Source: a virus | DNA length: 40,150 bases | Reading direction: 5' to 3' (one strand) | Virus record (IMG/VR): IMGVR_UViG_3300047508_000077 | Location: 1 to 40,150 of that record | Part shown: positions 10,255 through 40,102 of the stretch, piece by piece | Layout of the letters: each line of letters starts with the position of its first letter | Numbering within the stretch: position 1 is the first letter of the stretch | Program-made: the position numbers and the translations under genes | The notes under the pieces: generated by a model | The model's input: the letters and a program-made list of their open reading frames with translations, nothing else | What the model was told of the DNA's origin: nothing | Databases searched by the model: none

Positions 10255-11883
10255 TCACGCGACGCGCTCCTTTATTTTGATTGGGATATAGAGATTAGAA
10301 GTGTAAGCTTCGTCAAAACGCCTATTGCACTTCCGATCACCTGACGCCGCGACTTCCGGCACTGGCACTTTTCCGGCGATCTCGACGTATTCGCCATCGA
10401 ACGTCATTTTGAGGTCGACCAGAGCTTCGTAGATGGGGCGGCGCTCGGCGAAGGTTTCCGGCTCGCTATCCAGGGCGGTCAAGAGCTCGCATCCGGCGCG
10501 CACCATGTGCTCGGCGGGGAGAGCGAGTACCGAGCCCGCGGCGCGGATCTCGGCGGCAATACGCGCGACCTCTTGCTTATCGGCGAGGATCTCGGCATTG
10601 CCCTTGTCTTCGTCTTCGGTGCCGAGCTTCACCATGCGCCGCGTGCGGTCGATCCGCGCTTTGACGACGGCGAGCTCGGCTTCGAGTTTCGCGGTTGAAT
10701 TCTTCGACGGCAAGGAATCATAATACGCCGCGGCGTTGGCGATCAAAAGCGCCGGATTCGTGAGTAACCGCCAGATCGCATTCCAGACCACGGCTTCCAG
10801 TACGGCGCACTTGACGCGCGGCGTCGAGCGGCACACTTGCTTGCGGAGCTTGTAATCGTAGTTGCCGCACACGTACGATGCGCCGCTCTTTCCGGTCGAT
10901 GTGCGATGCCGCCGACCGCACGCTTTGCACCGTAGGTATCCGCAAAGCTCGTGCTTCGTGGCGGGCTTGCCGTTCGACATTTCCTTCGCGTCGGCAAACA
11001 TCCGTTGCGCGGCGTCGAACGTGTCGAGCTCGACAAACTTCGGACACTCCATGACCTCGCCGCCCTCGATGTGCTCGCCCGCGTACTTGCGGCGCTTGAG
11101 CATTTGCCGCACGGTTTGCCGCGACCACGCTCCCGGCTCGAATTGCCCCGGCTTGCCCGCGGTGAGAATGCCGCGCTTGTTGAGCTCGGTCTGGATCTTG
11201 CCGACGCGCCATTTCTGCGCGACGCGCCACGCATACACCATCTCGACGACGCCGCGGCGCGTGAGCCCTTCAATCGGCTCGTGACCTTTGGCATACTCGA
11301 CGGGCCGCGTGTCTTCGCGCAAGTATTGGCACTTGCCCGCGGCGTCTTTCGAGTACTTATCGACGTACACCATGCCGTACGGCGGCGTCGTTTGCGTCAT
11401 GCGCTTTTGCTTTTGCGCTTTCTTGCGACCGCCCTTCGTGCGGCGCTTGAGCTCGCGGAGCTCGCTTCCGGCTTGCGTCGCCGCTTCCATGCAAAGTTTC
11501 CAACCGCGGTCGGTCCAGGGCTCGACGATGCCTTCTTTCGTCGACACGATGACCTTTCGGTTGTCGAAGAAAAATTGCAAGATGCGCATCGACTCGAAAT
11601 CCTTCGGTCGGAAGATACGGTCGATTGCCGACACGCTGATACCGTCGACCTTCGGATCGCTGAGTTGCGCGAGCATCGCTTGCACTTCCGCGTTGCCCAT
11701 CACGAGCGTGCCGCTGATTTTGATACGGATCGTGCGCAACACGGTGAGCTCGAATTGCTCGCGGTTTTCCGCGGCGTCGTCTTCTTGCCGCGCGACGTCT
11801 TGACGGTCGCTCGACACGCGGAGCATCTCAATCACGTTGAGCGGCATCGGTTGCTCGGTTAGAGTCGGATTCAGGGTCGCCAT
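10255..11883 (-). CDS. Large serine recombinase (integrase)
   Basis: 542 residues. The N-terminal resolvase domain has LRVSSDRQ with the likely nucleophile Ser24, then VDGISVSAIDRIFRP and VIVSTKEGIV. The Recombinase domain spans about 160-300 (GMVYVD, GILTAG, WSRQTVRQMLKRRKYAGEH). Around 315-360 a zinc ribbon has GYLRCKACGRRH and YVCGNYDYK. A coiled coil follows near 395-430 (AKLEAELAVVKARIDRTRR). This is the domain order of large serine integrases, which join attP and attB through a Ser-DNA bond. The ATG has a perfect GGAGGT eight bases upstream. Its presence argues for a temperate phage; a directionality factor is not identified. Confidence 0.93.
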   Translation of the reverse strand: MATLNPTLTEQPMPLNVIEMLRVSSDRQDVARQEDDAAENREQFELTVLRTIRIKISGTLVMGNAEVQAMLAQLSDPKVDGISVSAIDRIFRPKDFESMRILQFFFDNRKVIVSTKEGIVEPWTDRGWKLCMEAATQAGSELRELKRRTKGGRKKAQKQKRMTQTTPPYGMVYVDKYSKDAAGKCQYLREDTRPVEYAKGHEPIEGLTRRGVVEMVYAWRVAQKWRVGKIQTELNKRGILTAGKPGQFEPGAWSRQTVRQMLKRRKYAGEHIEGGEVMECPKFVELDTFDAAQRMFADAKEMSNGKPATKHELCGYLRCKACGRRHRTSTGKSGASYVCGNYDYKLRKQVCRSTPRVKCAVLEAVVWNAIWRLLTNPALLIANAAAYYDSLPSKNSTAKLEAELAVVKARIDRTRRMVKLGTEDEDKGNAEILADKQEVARIAAEIRAAGSVLALPAEHMVRAGCELLTALDSEPETFAERRPIYEALVDLKMTFDGEYVEIAGKVPVPEVAASGDRKCNRRFDEAYTSNLYIPIKIKERVA

Positions 11884-34474: not shown

Positions 34475-35728
34475 TCACTGCGCGGGCGAGGCGGGCGCGA
34501 GCGGCTTGCCGTCGTCCGCGGCGTTCACCATGTTGAGCGGCGTGAGGTACGTGTCGCCGCCGTCGATCTTGTTTTGATCTTCGAGCTCGCGGATGTCGTT
34601 GGCGCTTGCCCAACCCCATTGCCGCGCGGTCGCATAACTCAGATAGCGCGTGCGGATGTCGCTTCGCTCGAAGCCGTTGAGATTCATCCGGTATGTGTAG
34701 GGCGCTTCGAGCAACGCTTTGTCGATGGATTGCTCGATGCTCACCACATACGGGTTGATCGTGTACCGCACAAACTCGATGCTCTGTTGCTCGACGCTCG
34801 CGTACGTCGGCTTATCCATTGCGCCGATGAGGTGCGGCGGCACGCCGAAGATGCGCGCGATCTGCTCGACCGAAAACTTTTTCTCTTCGATGTAGTTGAG
34901 TTGACTTAGTGGAATCGCGAGCGGCGTATACTTGACGCCCTCTTCGAGAATGCAGAGCTTGCCCGCGTTGAGCGGCCCCGAGTGCGTCTCGCGCCACGAT
35001 TCGCGGATACGGTCGACTTGCGGTTTCGTGAGTGCGTTGGGCGATTCGAGCACGCCGCTCGGTTGCCCGCTGTTTTGATAGATCGAGTACGCGTACGCCG
35101 ACGTCGCCGCTTCGAAGTCGAGCGTCATACGGTGATAGTCGAGCACGGGCAATCCGATATAGCCGTCGAGCGTGTAGAGCCGAAAATGGATCACGTCGGC
35201 GCTCGTGAACATGTGCGCGCGACCGCGCATGTCCGAGTAGTAGTAACCGAGCGTGCCGTCTTCCAAGAGCATGATCTGTACGCGCGCCGGATTGAGCGGC
35301 CATAGGCCGACGACTTCGCCGCCGATAGTGTCTTTCCACGTGAAGGCGTTGCCCCAGAGCAAGAGCGACATCATCGTCGGTTGCATCCACTGCGACGCGG
35401 TCATCGTGTTGTTAGGCGAGCGCGTGAGCGTGTTGTAAAGCGGGTTGTCGATTGCCTTCACTTTGCCCTGCGCGGTTTCCTCGAAGACGTTCGACGGCAA
35501 ACTCGCAATCGAATTCGCGATCACGCGGCAACACGCCCAGACCGCGGCACTCTGGAGCGCGCGGTTTACCGACGGGTTCATGCCGACGATTCCCGGCAAC
35601 GTGTTGATCGGCGCGCCGCCGCTCGCGCCGACCACGTTAGAGCTCGGCGTGCGGTTGGCGACGGTCACGCTACCGATGGTCGTGATCGCTTTCCAGGCGC
35701 GCGAGATGAGGGTTTTCAGATCGTCCAT
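34475..35728 (-). CDS. Portal protein, HK97 family
   Basis: 417 residues from ATG 35728, 13 bases inside the terminase gene. The longer open frame upstream is a terminase shadow. Signatures: ALQSAAVWACCRVIANSIAS, PLYNTLTRSPNNTMTASQWM, LLLWGNAFTWKDTIGGEVVG, LWPLNPARVQIM, DVIHFRLYTLDGYIGLPVLD, KKFSVEQIARIFGVPPHLIG and a C-terminal helical part. The portal forms the dodecameric ring at one capsid vertex through which DNA enters. Order with terminase and protease is canonical. Confidence 0.93.
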   Translation of the reverse strand: MDDLKTLISRAWKAITTIGSVTVANRTPSSNVVGASGGAPINTLPGIVGMNPSVNRALQSAAVWACCRVIANSIASLPSNVFEETAQGKVKAIDNPLYNTLTRSPNNTMTASQWMQPTMMSLLLWGNAFTWKDTIGGEVVGLWPLNPARVQIMLLEDGTLGYYYSDMRGRAHMFTSADVIHFRLYTLDGYIGLPVLDYHRMTLDFEAATSAYAYSIYQNSGQPSGVLESPNALTKPQVDRIRESWRETHSGPLNAGKLCILEEGVKYTPLAIPLSQLNYIEEKKFSVEQIARIFGVPPHLIGAMDKPTYASVEQQSIEFVRYTINPYVVSIEQSIDKALLEAPYTYRMNLNGFERSDIRTRYLSYATARQWGWASANDIRELEDQNKIDGGDTYLTPLNMVNAADDGKPLAPASPAQ

Positions 35729-37425
35729 AAGCCCCGGTTTTCGTAGTCGGCGCGCGGTGCCGCGTTGCGCTTCATGGCGCGCGATAGCGCCATCACGAGC
35801 GCGGTCACGCCGTCGATTTTCTTTTCTTCGGATTCCTTCCGCGGTTGGATCAAGTCGCCGACGCGGTGACACTTGACGTTTGCCATCATCCACGCGAGCA
35901 CTGGGTCGCCATCATGCCGGATCTTTTGCGAGATGACCAGACCTTCGAGCTCGGTCATCGCGGGCGACATGTTGGCGGGCGATTGCCGGATGTCGACAAT
36001 CGGCGCGCGGATGCCGAGCTTTTGGAGTCCGGTCACGATGGGCAGGTTTTTGTACGGATCGCTCGCGATCTCGATCACCTGGAAACGCGTCGCGAGGTCG
36101 GCGATGTGATCGAGAATGTAATCGAAATTCGTCACGTTGCCGGGAGTCGAGATGATGCGGCCCTGCGACTCCCAACCTTGATAGTGCTGATTCTCGCCGC
36201 GCGCGATTGTGTCTTCGGGCAAGTAGTGATAGGCGAAGACCGCGCCATGATCGCGCGTGCCGTGCGGCGGAAAGTATGCGACGAGATCGGCGATGTCACT
36301 TCGAAACGCGAGGTCGAGTCCGAGATAGCATTGCTCGTGCTCCAGGTCGAGAATTTCGAGCTCGGGGTCGGCGCACTTTTCCCACGCGCCCGCGGGCAAC
36401 CACGCGCTATCCGCGTTGACCCACACGTTGCAATGCCGCGTGAGGTACGCGTTCTGTTGCGACGGCATCGACTGCGCGCGCGCCGCGGCGATGCGCAGAC
36501 TCTCGGGATAGATCGACACGCCGTAATTGGGATTGGCTTTGATCTGCGCGGTTTCCGAGTACGGATCGTCGCCGTCGTCAATCGTGTAGATGATGCCGAA
36601 GTACGAATCGTCGGCGCTCACGCCGTCGAGAATGTCGATCACGTGCGCGCGTTGTTCATAGCACACGCTCGCGCGGTTGAGCCCCGCGGTCGTGATCGCC
36701 CAGATCAACGGTTGCGAGCGCGATCCGGTCGCGGTTTCGAGCACGTCCCACAAGCCGCGCGTCGGATGTGCATGGAGCTCGTCGATCAACGCCGCGTGAA
36801 TGTTGAGCCCGTCGAGATTCGAATGCTCCGCGGAAAGCGCCTCAAACTTGCTCGCGGTCGACGGTTGCACGATGGTATGCGCGGGCACTTCGACGCCGAA
36901 TTTCGAAAGGAATCCCGGCTCGCGCTTCGCCATGTATTGGGCGTCGTTAAAGACGAGCTTCGCTTGATCGCGCGTGTTGGCGGCGCTCACGACGTACGCG
37001 CCCGCTTCGTTGTCGCACGCGACCAGATAGCAACCGAGCGCGCTCGTGAGCGTTGACTTCGCATTCTTCCGCGGCACTTCGATATAGGCGACGCGGAATC
37101 GCCGCGTCTCGGTCGCGGTGCACTGCCAACCGAAGACGGTCGCGAGAATGAAGCTCTGCCAGTGTTCGAGCTCGATCCGCTTGCGTTGCTGCGCCCAAAC
37201 GCCTTTGATGTGCGGAAAGCGTTGCACGATGTCGCACACGCGATTGCCCGCCGCGCCGTCGAAGTAAAACGGTTGGTCTTTGCCTTTGTACTTGTCGAGG
37301 TCGCGCAATTGCCGCTCGCACGCGAGCTTGACGAAGCGGCACGCGAGCACTTTGCCCGAGATCACGTCTTCGCAGTATTCGAGCGCCGCGCTTACGTGCG
37401 GTAGTGCGCGCGTCGCGGTGGGCAT
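35716..37425 (-). CDS. Terminase large subunit
   Basis: 569 residues. ATPase domain: a degenerate Walker A VPRKNAKST at 117-125, Walker B ALIDELHAH at 212-220, then a coupling motif around WAITTAG (242-248). The nuclease domain has acidic residues at Asp371 (LGLDLAFRSD), Asp456 (IEIASDPYKN) and Asp538 (KKIDGVTALVMAL). This arrangement matches the Terminase_1/HK97-type large subunits that cut concatemers and pump DNA. It starts 19 bases after the small subunit. A cos mechanism is suggested by the nearby HNH gene, though not proven. Confidence 0.94.
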   Translation of the reverse strand: MPTATRALPHVSAALEYCEDVISGKVLACRFVKLACERQLRDLDKYKGKDQPFYFDGAAGNRVCDIVQRFPHIKGVWAQQRKRIELEHWQSFILATVFGWQCTATETRRFRVAYIEVPRKNAKSTLTSALGCYLVACDNEAGAYVVSAANTRDQAKLVFNDAQYMAKREPGFLSKFGVEVPAHTIVQPSTASKFEALSAEHSNLDGLNIHAALIDELHAHPTRGLWDVLETATGSRSQPLIWAITTAGLNRASVCYEQRAHVIDILDGVSADDSYFGIIYTIDDGDDPYSETAQIKANPNYGVSIYPESLRIAAARAQSMPSQQNAYLTRHCNVWVNADSAWLPAGAWEKCADPELEILDLEHEQCYLGLDLAFRSDIADLVAYFPPHGTRDHGAVFAYHYLPEDTIARGENQHYQGWESQGRIISTPGNVTNFDYILDHIADLATRFQVIEIASDPYKNLPIVTGLQKLGIRAPIVDIRQSPANMSPAMTELEGLVISQKIRHDGDPVLAWMMANVKCHRVGDLIQPRKESEEKKIDGVTALVMALSRAMKRNAAPRADYENRGLWTI

Positions 37426-37444: not shown

Positions 37445-37903
37445 TTATCCGACGTCTTCCCAACCGTCGGCGGTCGGTGCCGACGACGGCTTGCCCGCAT
37501 CGATGCGCGCGCGACTGCACGGCGTGAAGCCGAGCTCGCTCGCCGCGCGGATCATCAGAACCATTTGCCGATTGATGATCGCGAGGTACGGATTCTGCAT
37601 GGGTAGCTCTTGCTTCGGACTCTTCACGAGTAACTGCGATTGCGCCATCGCGACGCACGCTTTGCGGTGCGTGTCTTCGGCGACGATGAATCCGGCGAGT
37701 ACGGCTTTGTCGATGCGGCGCAGAATCTCGCGCGGCGCGTTTTCGAGCGTGTACGCCCACTCGGTCTTTTGCTCGGCGGTGAGCCACTCGGGCGGATCGG
37801 CGAGCGGTCCCGGCGTCGGCGTGCGGCGCGCAATAAGTTTCTCCGCTTTCTTTCCGGTCATGCGGAGGATTTTCAATTCGACGGGTTTCTTTTTACCTGC
37901 CAT
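37445..37903 (-). CDS. Terminase small subunit, P27 family
   Basis: 152 residues from ATG 37903 (AAGG eight bases upstream; overlaps the carboxy-SAM synthase gene by 11 bases). P27-type signatures: KKPVELKILRMTGKKAEKLI, DPPEWLTAEQKTEWAYTLE, AVLAGFIVAEDTHRKACVAM, and LPMQNPYLAIINRQMVLMIR followed by ELGFTPCSRARI. It recognises the packaging site on phage DNA and hands it to the large subunit. Its direct overlap with the modification genes ties modification and packaging to one transcript. Confidence 0.9.
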   Translation of the reverse strand: MAGKKKPVELKILRMTGKKAEKLIARRTPTPGPLADPPEWLTAEQKTEWAYTLENAPREILRRIDKAVLAGFIVAEDTHRKACVAMAQSQLLVKSPKQELPMQNPYLAIINRQMVLMIRAASELGFTPCSRARIDAGKPSSAPTADGWEDVG

Positions 37904-38618
37904 GATCGTTACCTTTGATCGCGACCCATGCCGCAAAATTCATCCAACGCCAATAGCAATCGACGCTTCGGAATCCGGCGTCGCGAAGCATCGACTCATT
38001 CCATGCCGCGGTGATCGGCACGAGCACACCTTCGAGCGAGAGCCGCTTACGCTCGATGGCGTTTTCGTCGTATCCGTTCTCGCGCTTCAGATAGTAGTAG
38101 AGCTCGACGAAGGTCCGGTCGAGCTCGAAGTTATTGCCGAGCACTTTCTCGACGAGCAAGAGCGCGCCGCCGGGAAGTAACGAATCGTGGATGTGTTGCA
38201 CGATCCGCATCCGGTATTCGATGGGAATGAATTGGAGCGTGAGCACGGCGAGCGCGACCGAGTACTCGCCCGCCGGAAGCTCGCTCCGCAAATCCATTTC
38301 GAGCACTTCGACCAGATCGCCGTGCGGCGCGAGCTCGGCGCGCGCGGCTTCGACCATCGGCTTTGAGATGTCGACGCCGACGTACTCATTCGACACGTCG
38401 AGCACGCTCGCGATCTCGGCGAGTTGCACGCCGCGCGAGCAACCGTAATCGATGATCGACGTTCCGAGTTGCGCAAACTTGAGCGCGAGGTCGGTCGTCG
38501 CGCGGCGCATCACGTTGTATTGCGGAATCGAGCGCGCGAGCATGTCGTCGAAAGCGCGCGTCACGTCGTCGTCAAACTTCCATGCGCCGAGCGGTTGTAC
38601 GTTGTCGATCTCAGGCAT
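37893..38618 (-). CDS. CmoA-like carboxy-S-adenosylmethionine synthase
   Basis: 241 residues. It aligns along its length with bacterial CmoA, which turns SAM and prephenate into carboxy-SAM: WKFDDDVTRAFDDMLARSIP, IIDYGCSRGVQLAEI (SAM-binding loop), VGVDISKPMVEAA, LTLQFIPIEYRMRIVQHIH, LLPGGALLLVEKVL, YYYLKRENGYDENAIERKRL, and WMNFAAWVAIKG. Arg192 in ERKRLSLEGV falls where E. coli CmoA has Arg199, the residue that holds the carboxylate. No CmoB (the tRNA carboxymethyltransferase) is present. It is coupled by 8 bases to the C5 methyltransferase and by 11 to the terminase. I infer that it feeds carboxy-SAM to the methyltransferase; plain methyltransferase activity is the alternative. Confidence 0.87.
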   Translation of the reverse strand: MPEIDNVQPLGAWKFDDDVTRAFDDMLARSIPQYNVMRRATTDLALKFAQLGTSIIDYGCSRGVQLAEIASVLDVSNEYVGVDISKPMVEAARAELAPHGDLVEVLEMDLRSELPAGEYSVALAVLTLQFIPIEYRMRIVQHIHDSLLPGGALLLVEKVLGNNFELDRTFVELYYYLKRENGYDENAIERKRLSLEGVLVPITAAWNESMLRDAGFRSVDCYWRWMNFAAWVAIKGNDHGR

Positions 38619-39561
38619 TGAGTATCCGGTCGCGGATCACCGCGGCGACCTCGCGCATCATGAGCGGCGGCACGGCGCGCGCGACGCGCTCCCACTGCTG
38701 CGCATACGTTCCGGTGAGCTCGAAGTCGTCGGGGAATCCGGCGACGGCTTTGAGCTCGCGCATGGTGAAGCGCCGCCGCTCGCCGAGCTCGGCTTCCACC
38801 TGGAGCGCGCGCGTCGCCTGGAGCGTCGCCGCGGCGCGGTAGGCCGACGAGTAGCGGTGATGATTGAAACCGTTGGCCCCTTCGACGGCGCGCAAATGCG
38901 GCACCGCATCGGCGACCGAGTACGAATACCGGAAGGGCCGCGGAAACGCCGGATCACGCGCGAGGTCTTCGCGCACGCCGATGAAGATAAGCCGCTCGCG
39001 GCTTTGCGGCACGCCGAGCCATTTCGCGTCGAGTACCTGCGACCGCACGCGGTAACCGTGCGCCTGGAACGCGGCGAGGATATCGAGGAAATATCCTTTG
39101 GCGACGCCCTTCACGAGTCCGCTCACGTTCTCGGCGACGAAGACTTTCGGGCGAAGCTCGCCGACGATCCGCGCATATTCGAAAAACAGATCGTCGGTGC
39201 GTTGCTCTGTATCGCTGTACGGTTTCACACTACCCCAGTCGCGGGCGCGTTTCCCGGCGCTCGAAAAGCTCGCGCACGGCGGCGAACCTTCGAGCACGTC
39301 GACGCCGCGGTCGCCGATTGAATCTAGGGCCGTTTCCGCCGCGGCAATCAGGGTTTTAGCCGTGACCGTGCGCACGTCGGAAGCGTCGAGCGGCGTCTCG
39401 GGGAAGTTGGCGCGGTACGTGTCGCGCGCCGCGGCGACGAATTCGCAAGCGTAGACGACGCGGAAGCCCGCCATGCGGAAGCCGAGACACGAGCCGCCGC
39501 AACCCGAAAAGAGCGACGCGACCGTGTAACCGTTCCGCGGCACCGCGGCGATCTCGGTCAT
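38611..39561 (-). CDS. C5-cytosine DNA methyltransferase with motif X Asn-to-Arg change
   Basis: 316 residues from ATG 39561 (an ATG at 39639 would overlap the ParB-like gene and add an unconserved tail). All catalytic motifs are present: I LFSGCGG (17-23), II with Glu40, IV SPPCASFS with Cys96, VI AENV with Glu144, VIII QSRER (186-190), IX RRRFTMREL (262-270) and GFPDDF. The target domain is short. In motif X, where methyltransferases normally have GN(A/S)V, this protein reads ARAVPP: Arg295 replaces the Asn near the transferred group. An engineered Asn-to-Lys change in motif X of M.MpeI is known to let it use carboxy-SAM and make 5-carboxymethylcytosine. With the CmoA-like neighbour, DNA carboxymethylation is the likely reaction (inference). 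Confidence 0.92.
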   Translation of the reverse strand: MTEIAAVPRNGYTVASLFSGCGGSCLGFRMAGFRVVYACEFVAAARDTYRANFPETPLDASDVRTVTAKTLIAAAETALDSIGDRGVDVLEGSPPCASFSSAGKRARDWGSVKPYSDTEQRTDDLFFEYARIVGELRPKVFVAENVSGLVKGVAKGYFLDILAAFQAHGYRVRSQVLDAKWLGVPQSRERLIFIGVREDLARDPAFPRPFRYSYSVADAVPHLRAVEGANGFNHHRYSSAYRAAATLQATRALQVEAELGERRRFTMRELKAVAGFPDDFELTGTYAQQWERVARAVPPLMMREVAAVIRDRILNA

Positions 39562-39583
39562 CGTCGGCACGCGATAGGCGGGC

Positions 39584-40102
39584 TTAGAATCGATAGCCGC
39601 ACTTCGGGCACTCGTGCTCGGTTGCCATGTTGCCGTCATATTCTCGAAACTCTTCGGGTGCGCTCACGCCGCGCATGAGCTTTTGAAATTCGTCATCAGT
39701 GAAGCCGATCAAGTCGAGCGCGTACGCGTCGCGGAGCTCGCTCAATTCACCCGCGAGCAACGTGTTGTCCCATTGCGCGTTGAGCGCGAGCTTGTTGTCG
39801 GCGAGCACATACGCGCGTTTCTTCGCGTCGCTCCAACCGCGGGCGACCAGTACGGGCACGTTGACGTATCCGAGCTTGCGCGCGGCGAGTACGCGACCGT
39901 GACCCGCGATGATGCCGTCGAGCTCGTCGATCAAAACCGGGATCGTCCATCCCCACTCGCGGATCGACGCGGCGATCTGCGCAACGTGCGCGTCGTCGTG
40001 CACGCGGGCATTCCTCGCGTACGGCACGAGCGACGCAACCGAGCGCGTCTCAAGCGCCGCGGCGGCGGGTCTGAGCGATAAAAGCTCGGTCGATGGGCTC
40101 AT
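39584..40102 (-). CDS. Stand-alone ParB/Srx-like domain protein
   Basis: 172 residues from ATG 40102; a TTG at 40141 would lie in the terminal repeat. Residues 20-125 match the ParB-like domain usually fused to phage DNA methylases: LVPYARNARVHDDAHVAQIA, IREWGWTIPVLID, GIIAGHGRVLAARKLGYVNV, AYVLADNKLALNAQWDNTLL. The end is HECPKCGYRF, a half ribbon. Here no methylase is fused; a C5 methyltransferase gene follows 22 bases after the stop. ParB-type domains bind DNA and nucleotides, some with nuclease activity. A link to the modification enzyme, for example target control, is inferred from its usual partner. Confidence 0.85.
   Translation of the reverse strand: MSPSTELLSLRPAAAALETRSVASLVPYARNARVHDDAHVAQIAASIREWGWTIPVLIDELDGIIAGHGRVLAARKLGYVNVPVLVARGWSDAKKRAYVLADNKLALNAQWDNTLLAGELSELRDAYALDLIGFTDDEFQKLMRGVSAPEEFREYDGNMATEHECPKCGYRF

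Follow-up and report, generated by a model that had tools for sequence, protein, structure and literature searches.

The stretch of DNA analysed here (the window) comprises 40,150 nucleotides of viral sequence, and carries on its minus strand a run of genes encoding, in order, a ParB-domain protein, a C5-cytosine methyltransferase (MTase) homolog, a CmoA-like protein, and the small and large subunits of terminase. The ParB-domain gene (39584..40102), assigned through a weak match of its ParB N domain to PF02195 (E = 2e-4, below the cut-off) and through conservation of its neighbours, encodes a C-terminal CPKC tail; its start at 40102 was inferred from alignment, the reading frame being open up to the contig end, and the 40,150-base record is probably a fragment that ends just upstream of this gene. 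The MTase gene, cmoX (38611..39639, 342 amino acids), is predicted to encode a DNA cytosine C5-carboxymethyltransferase on the basis of PF00145 membership, similarity to the structure 8YF3 and its key residues. It had previously been taken to start at 39561, but that start corresponds to an internal methionine (M27); because the family-conserved residues K19, P20, Y22 and P25 lie upstream of M27 the gene must be longer, and its open reading frame runs to 39639. The ATG of cmoA (37893..38618, 241 amino acids), a predicted carboxy-SAM synthase gene assigned from TIGR00740, the structures 1im8, 4gek and 4iwn, and residue mapping, overlaps the MTase stop codon by 8 bases (ATGCCTGA). Beyond it lie the genes for the terminase small subunit (37445..37936; PF05119), whose start may be internal, and large subunit (35716..37425; PF03354 and PF20441). 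The original prediction of overlapping C5-MTase and CmoA-like genes directly before the terminase genes was therefore correct, and the pairing of MTase and CmoA is not due to chance, since the order ParB-MTase-CmoA recurs in many related viruses. Elsewhere in the window, positions 294-1076 encode a protein predicted to join a P-loop kinase-like AAA_33 domain to an HNH nuclease domain at its C terminus, and positions 10255-11883 a large serine recombinase (Resolvase, Recombinase and Zn ribbon domains), which suggests that the phage is temperate.

The MTase scored 182 bits against PF00145 (cut-off 22). When it was compared by phmmer with all PDB chains the best match was 8YF3 (E = 2.4e-57), the complex of CmoX from Synechococcus phage S-B43 with carboxy-SAM (Cx-SAM), followed by M.HaeIII (E = 3.2e-22); with a 40-member MTase profile the corresponding E-values were 8.9e-97 for 8YF3 and 4.7e-40 for the next chain. 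The same structure was the top Foldseek match to an AlphaFold2 model of the protein (pLDDT 88); in sequence and fold alike, no solved protein stands nearer to the window MTase than S-B43 CmoX, with which it shares about 31-34% identity (~31% in the fold alignment). The SPPC nucleophile motif is present, with Cys122 followed by Ala123. Motif X reads WERVARAVPPLMM, in which an arginine (Arg321, codon CGC at 38677..38679, minus strand) takes the place of the asparagine of ordinary C5-MTases, at the position of Asn304 in M.HhaI, and aligns with Arg350 of S-B43 CmoX in 8YF3. A C5-MTase fold and SPPC motif are thus found together with the arginine of CmoX and a neighbouring cmoA gene.

The CmoA-like protein matched TIGR00740 with E = 1.4e-47 and 162 bits, against a curated equivalog cut-off of 193, and NF011995 with 110 bits, against a cut-off of 285; because both scores fall short, we regard it as a divergent CmoA, named CmoA-like on family-level evidence. 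Its best sequence matches among solved proteins are the CmoA structures 1im8, 4gek and 4iwn, and these same three fill the first six Foldseek rows for its model (pLDDT 83; TM 0.74-0.81; ~30% identity), so that CmoA is also its nearest solved fold. It keeps the equivalents of E. coli Asp62, Asp117, Glu164 (as Glu157) and Arg199 (as Arg192), the last of which forms a salt bridge to the carboxylate in the scheme of residue roles of Byrne et al. (PMC3663124); equivalents of Ala70 and Asn132 are missing. S-B43 CmoA likewise lacks Ala70 and Asn132, and has Glu at the Arg199 position. A divergent class of CmoA-like proteins, ~20-25% identical to that of the window, was seen in loci L005, L011, L028, L048, L087 and others; its members also have Glu at the Arg199 position, and share a common KELSLxGxQRP stretch.

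The original prediction had left open whether a natural system for carboxymethylation of phage DNA had been reported. Such a system does exist, but it is not new: the pathway of phage S-B43 was published on 7 December 2025 (Yang et al., Nat Commun; PMC12783734). In S-B43, the sole phage measured in that work, CmoA produces carboxy-SAM; CmoX, a C5-MTase homolog with Arg for the motif X Asn, yields 5-carboxymethylcytosine (5cxmC) at GC motifs, and the wild-type enzyme takes only carboxy-SAM, whose carboxylate is contacted in 8YF3 by Arg350; and CmoY then attaches glycine, the virion DNA containing 5-glycylcarboxymethylcytosine and no free 5cxmC (PMC12783734). The same study reported that host CmoA is able to provide the cofactor and described HhaI resistance, and gathered from IMG/VR and other sources 5,615 candidate CmoX sequences, many with CmoA, ligase and ParB neighbours (PMC12783734); the window MTase may be among them.

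A neighbourhood survey for co-occurrence of CmoA with motif X variants, proposed at the outset as a check, was run on 175 loci of the window MTase family from viral contigs, bacterial genomes and annotated phages, with profiles built from collected relatives and applied to six-frame open reading frames. A CmoA homolog lies nearby in 122 of 130 Arg-type loci and in none of 45 non-Arg loci (43 Asn, 1 Asp, 1 Leu), an association due in part to shared ancestry, since the Arg-type members cluster in the tree (six changes in the best tree, only one forced by well-supported branches), so that Fisher p-values overstate independence. After dereplication at 80% identity the counts are 67 of 71 against 0 of 31, and among loci with more than 2 kb of downstream sequence 61 of 62 against 0 of 28. 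Among the Arg-type loci without CmoA several lie on contigs that are cut short, while L034 and L065 stand without an explanation; the cofactor can also come from a host CmoA. A short match to the CmoA tail in L070 and L072 had no convincing reading frame and was not counted. The position following the catalytic cysteine, which corresponds to Gln82 of M.HhaI, differs between the two types: of the 130 Arg-type enzymes 127 have Ala or Ser there, whereas 40 of the 43 Asn-type enzymes have Gln. The caveat of shared ancestry applies equally to this difference. In M.HhaI, Gln82 and Asn304 have both been shortened by engineering to admit bulkier cofactors (PMC10666283); Gln at this site is not mentioned in the main text of PMC12783734. 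At the site of M.HhaI Tyr254 the recognition domain is unaligned across the family. Two Asn-type MTases, L130 and L136, have Val for Gln after the catalytic cysteine and no CmoA, and are placed near the window enzyme in the tree without firm support; they are possible reversions from the Arg type. Several Arg-type MTase and CmoA loci (among L148-L164) occur within single Verrucomicrobia MAGs, and the two examined both adjoin a lambda-type GpA terminase, so these appear to represent several prophages, or phages included by binning.

The ParB gene adjoins the MTase gene in 166 of the 175 loci and, because it is found with both Arg- and Asn-type enzymes, is best seen as a partner of the MTase and not of carboxymethylation. 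The N-terminal part of its product is widely variable, but conservation is seen in the tail ...FxExDExIxTEHxCPKCGYxW, which may serve in docking or in binding metal; this tail is absent from the one S-B43 neighbour checked, the product of the gene after CmoX.

The combination of Arg321, Ala123 and an adjoining cmoA gene makes carboxymethylation the best reading of the window. By analogy with S-B43, from whose experiments the chemistry and product are carried over to gene identities, gene order, key residues and a co-occurrence observed here, we put at about 0.88 the probability that the window carries a CmoA-CmoX cassette that carboxymethylates DNA cytosines. The proposal that the phage makes its own carboxy-SAM for this purpose is supported by the match to the S-B43 system, by CmoX being the nearest relative of known structure, and by the co-occurrence of Arg-type enzymes with CmoA. 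Phage CmoA would convert SAM and prephenate into carboxy-SAM; CmoX would flip out the target cytosine for attack by Cys122 at C6, with Arg321 holding the cofactor carboxylate and Ala123 making room in the pocket, and would transfer the carboxymethyl group to C5 to give 5-carboxymethylcytosine at a short motif in the phage DNA. The modified base probably shields the DNA against restriction, which would fit the published HhaI resistance, and modification may end with the bare acid, no CmoY-type ligase being seen. Judged from the sequences, the points that weigh against the cassette are the ~31% identity of the MTase to 8YF3, the position of CmoA below its equivalog cut-off, the clustering of Arg-type enzymes in the tree, and the missing Asn132 and Ala70 equivalents, though the active S-B43 CmoA is without them too.

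The nature of the final base turns on the ligase. No window open reading frame matched the CmoY amide ligase profile, and no asparagine-synthetase-like ligase was found by CmoX and CmoA among the window reading frames, the contig ending just upstream of ParB. Of the 175 surveyed loci, 31 have a CmoY homolog, all of them Arg-type and including those of PaBG, an Erwinia phage and TurkishDelight. Where a ParB-linked cassette contains a ligase gene, this separates ParB from the MTase, separates the MTase from CmoA, or closely follows CmoA; only an Erwinia jumbo phage departs from the pattern, its CmoA and CmoY being located far upstream of the MTase. No ligase was matched in 23 of 30 dereplicated Arg-type loci with CmoA and adequate flanks, and inspection of genes lying between MTase and CmoA in some of the loci without a ligase disclosed no recurrent candidate for a tailoring enzyme. 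The lack of CmoY in the window and in these 23 loci makes bare 5cxmC plausible as a final base, and we tentatively suggest, at slightly less than even odds, that the window phage and many ligase-free cassettes carry it in their virion DNA in this anionic form. In a variant of the carboxymethylation reading, the carboxymethyl group would be only a handle, capped with glycine, ammonia or another amine by a ligase whose gene lies outside the contig or goes unrecognised within the window. The glycylated base of S-B43, the 31 loci with CmoY homologs and the truncation of the window beside ParB all favour such capping; however, given the missing CmoY match, the lack of room for a ligase at the usual sites in the ParB-MTase-CmoA-TerS run, and the high proportion of well-flanked loci that are ligase-free, it is possible but rather doubtful.

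Readings that dispense with carboxymethylation fare much worse. Membership of PF00145 would suit an ordinary 5-methylcytosine MTase that happens to stand beside an unrelated CmoA-like methyltransferase, but the motif X arginine, the lack of any CmoA neighbour among the family's 45 non-Arg members, and the exclusive use of carboxy-SAM by wild-type S-B43 CmoX render this very improbable. Bacterial CmoA works in the tRNA wobble cmo5U pathway and the label tRNA methyltransferase is given to some phage copies, but a CmoA serving tRNA modification and only incidentally placed beside the MTase is very unlikely here, the window having no tRNA gene and the CmoA gene going with Arg-type and not with Asn-type MTases.

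A cytosine-carboxymethylating cassette in the window would place a DNA-modification pathway whose publication is very recent in another phage lineage. The family also offers a natural control for the pathway, in sister enzymes that have the same ParB partner and differ in two pocket residues and in the presence of CmoA, while it is in the ligase-free cassettes that modification may stop at free 5-carboxymethylcytosine.

The window resembles S-B43 in uniting, in one cassette, CmoA and a C5-MTase homolog of the same fold with SPPC and the same key arginine, and ParB partners were reported in the S-B43 study as well (PMC12783734). It differs in having a ParB partner itself, in the lack of a detected ligase, in the position of the cassette before terminase, and in a CmoA that keeps the Arg199 equivalent where that of S-B43 has Glu. 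Neighbouring ParB, Arg-type MTase and CmoA genes are shared with the Streptomyces phage TurkishDelight, the Pseudomonas phage PaBG and the Moraxella phage Mcat8. TurkishDelight and PaBG both carry a ligase, which was not found in the window; Mcat8 has its cassette directly before terminase and without a ligase, as in the window, but its CmoA is only ~21% identical and has no Arg199 equivalent. The Asn-type ParB-linked phage C5-MTases (for example L042 and L097) have the same MTase family and ParB partner, but with a Gln and Asn pocket and neither CmoA nor ligase, and are presumably plain 5mC enzymes. A basic motif X residue is also found in M.MpeI N374K, a CG-specific enzyme which it enables to use carboxy-SAM, as cited in PMC12783734; there the residue is an engineered lysine, whereas in the window MTase it is a natural arginine.
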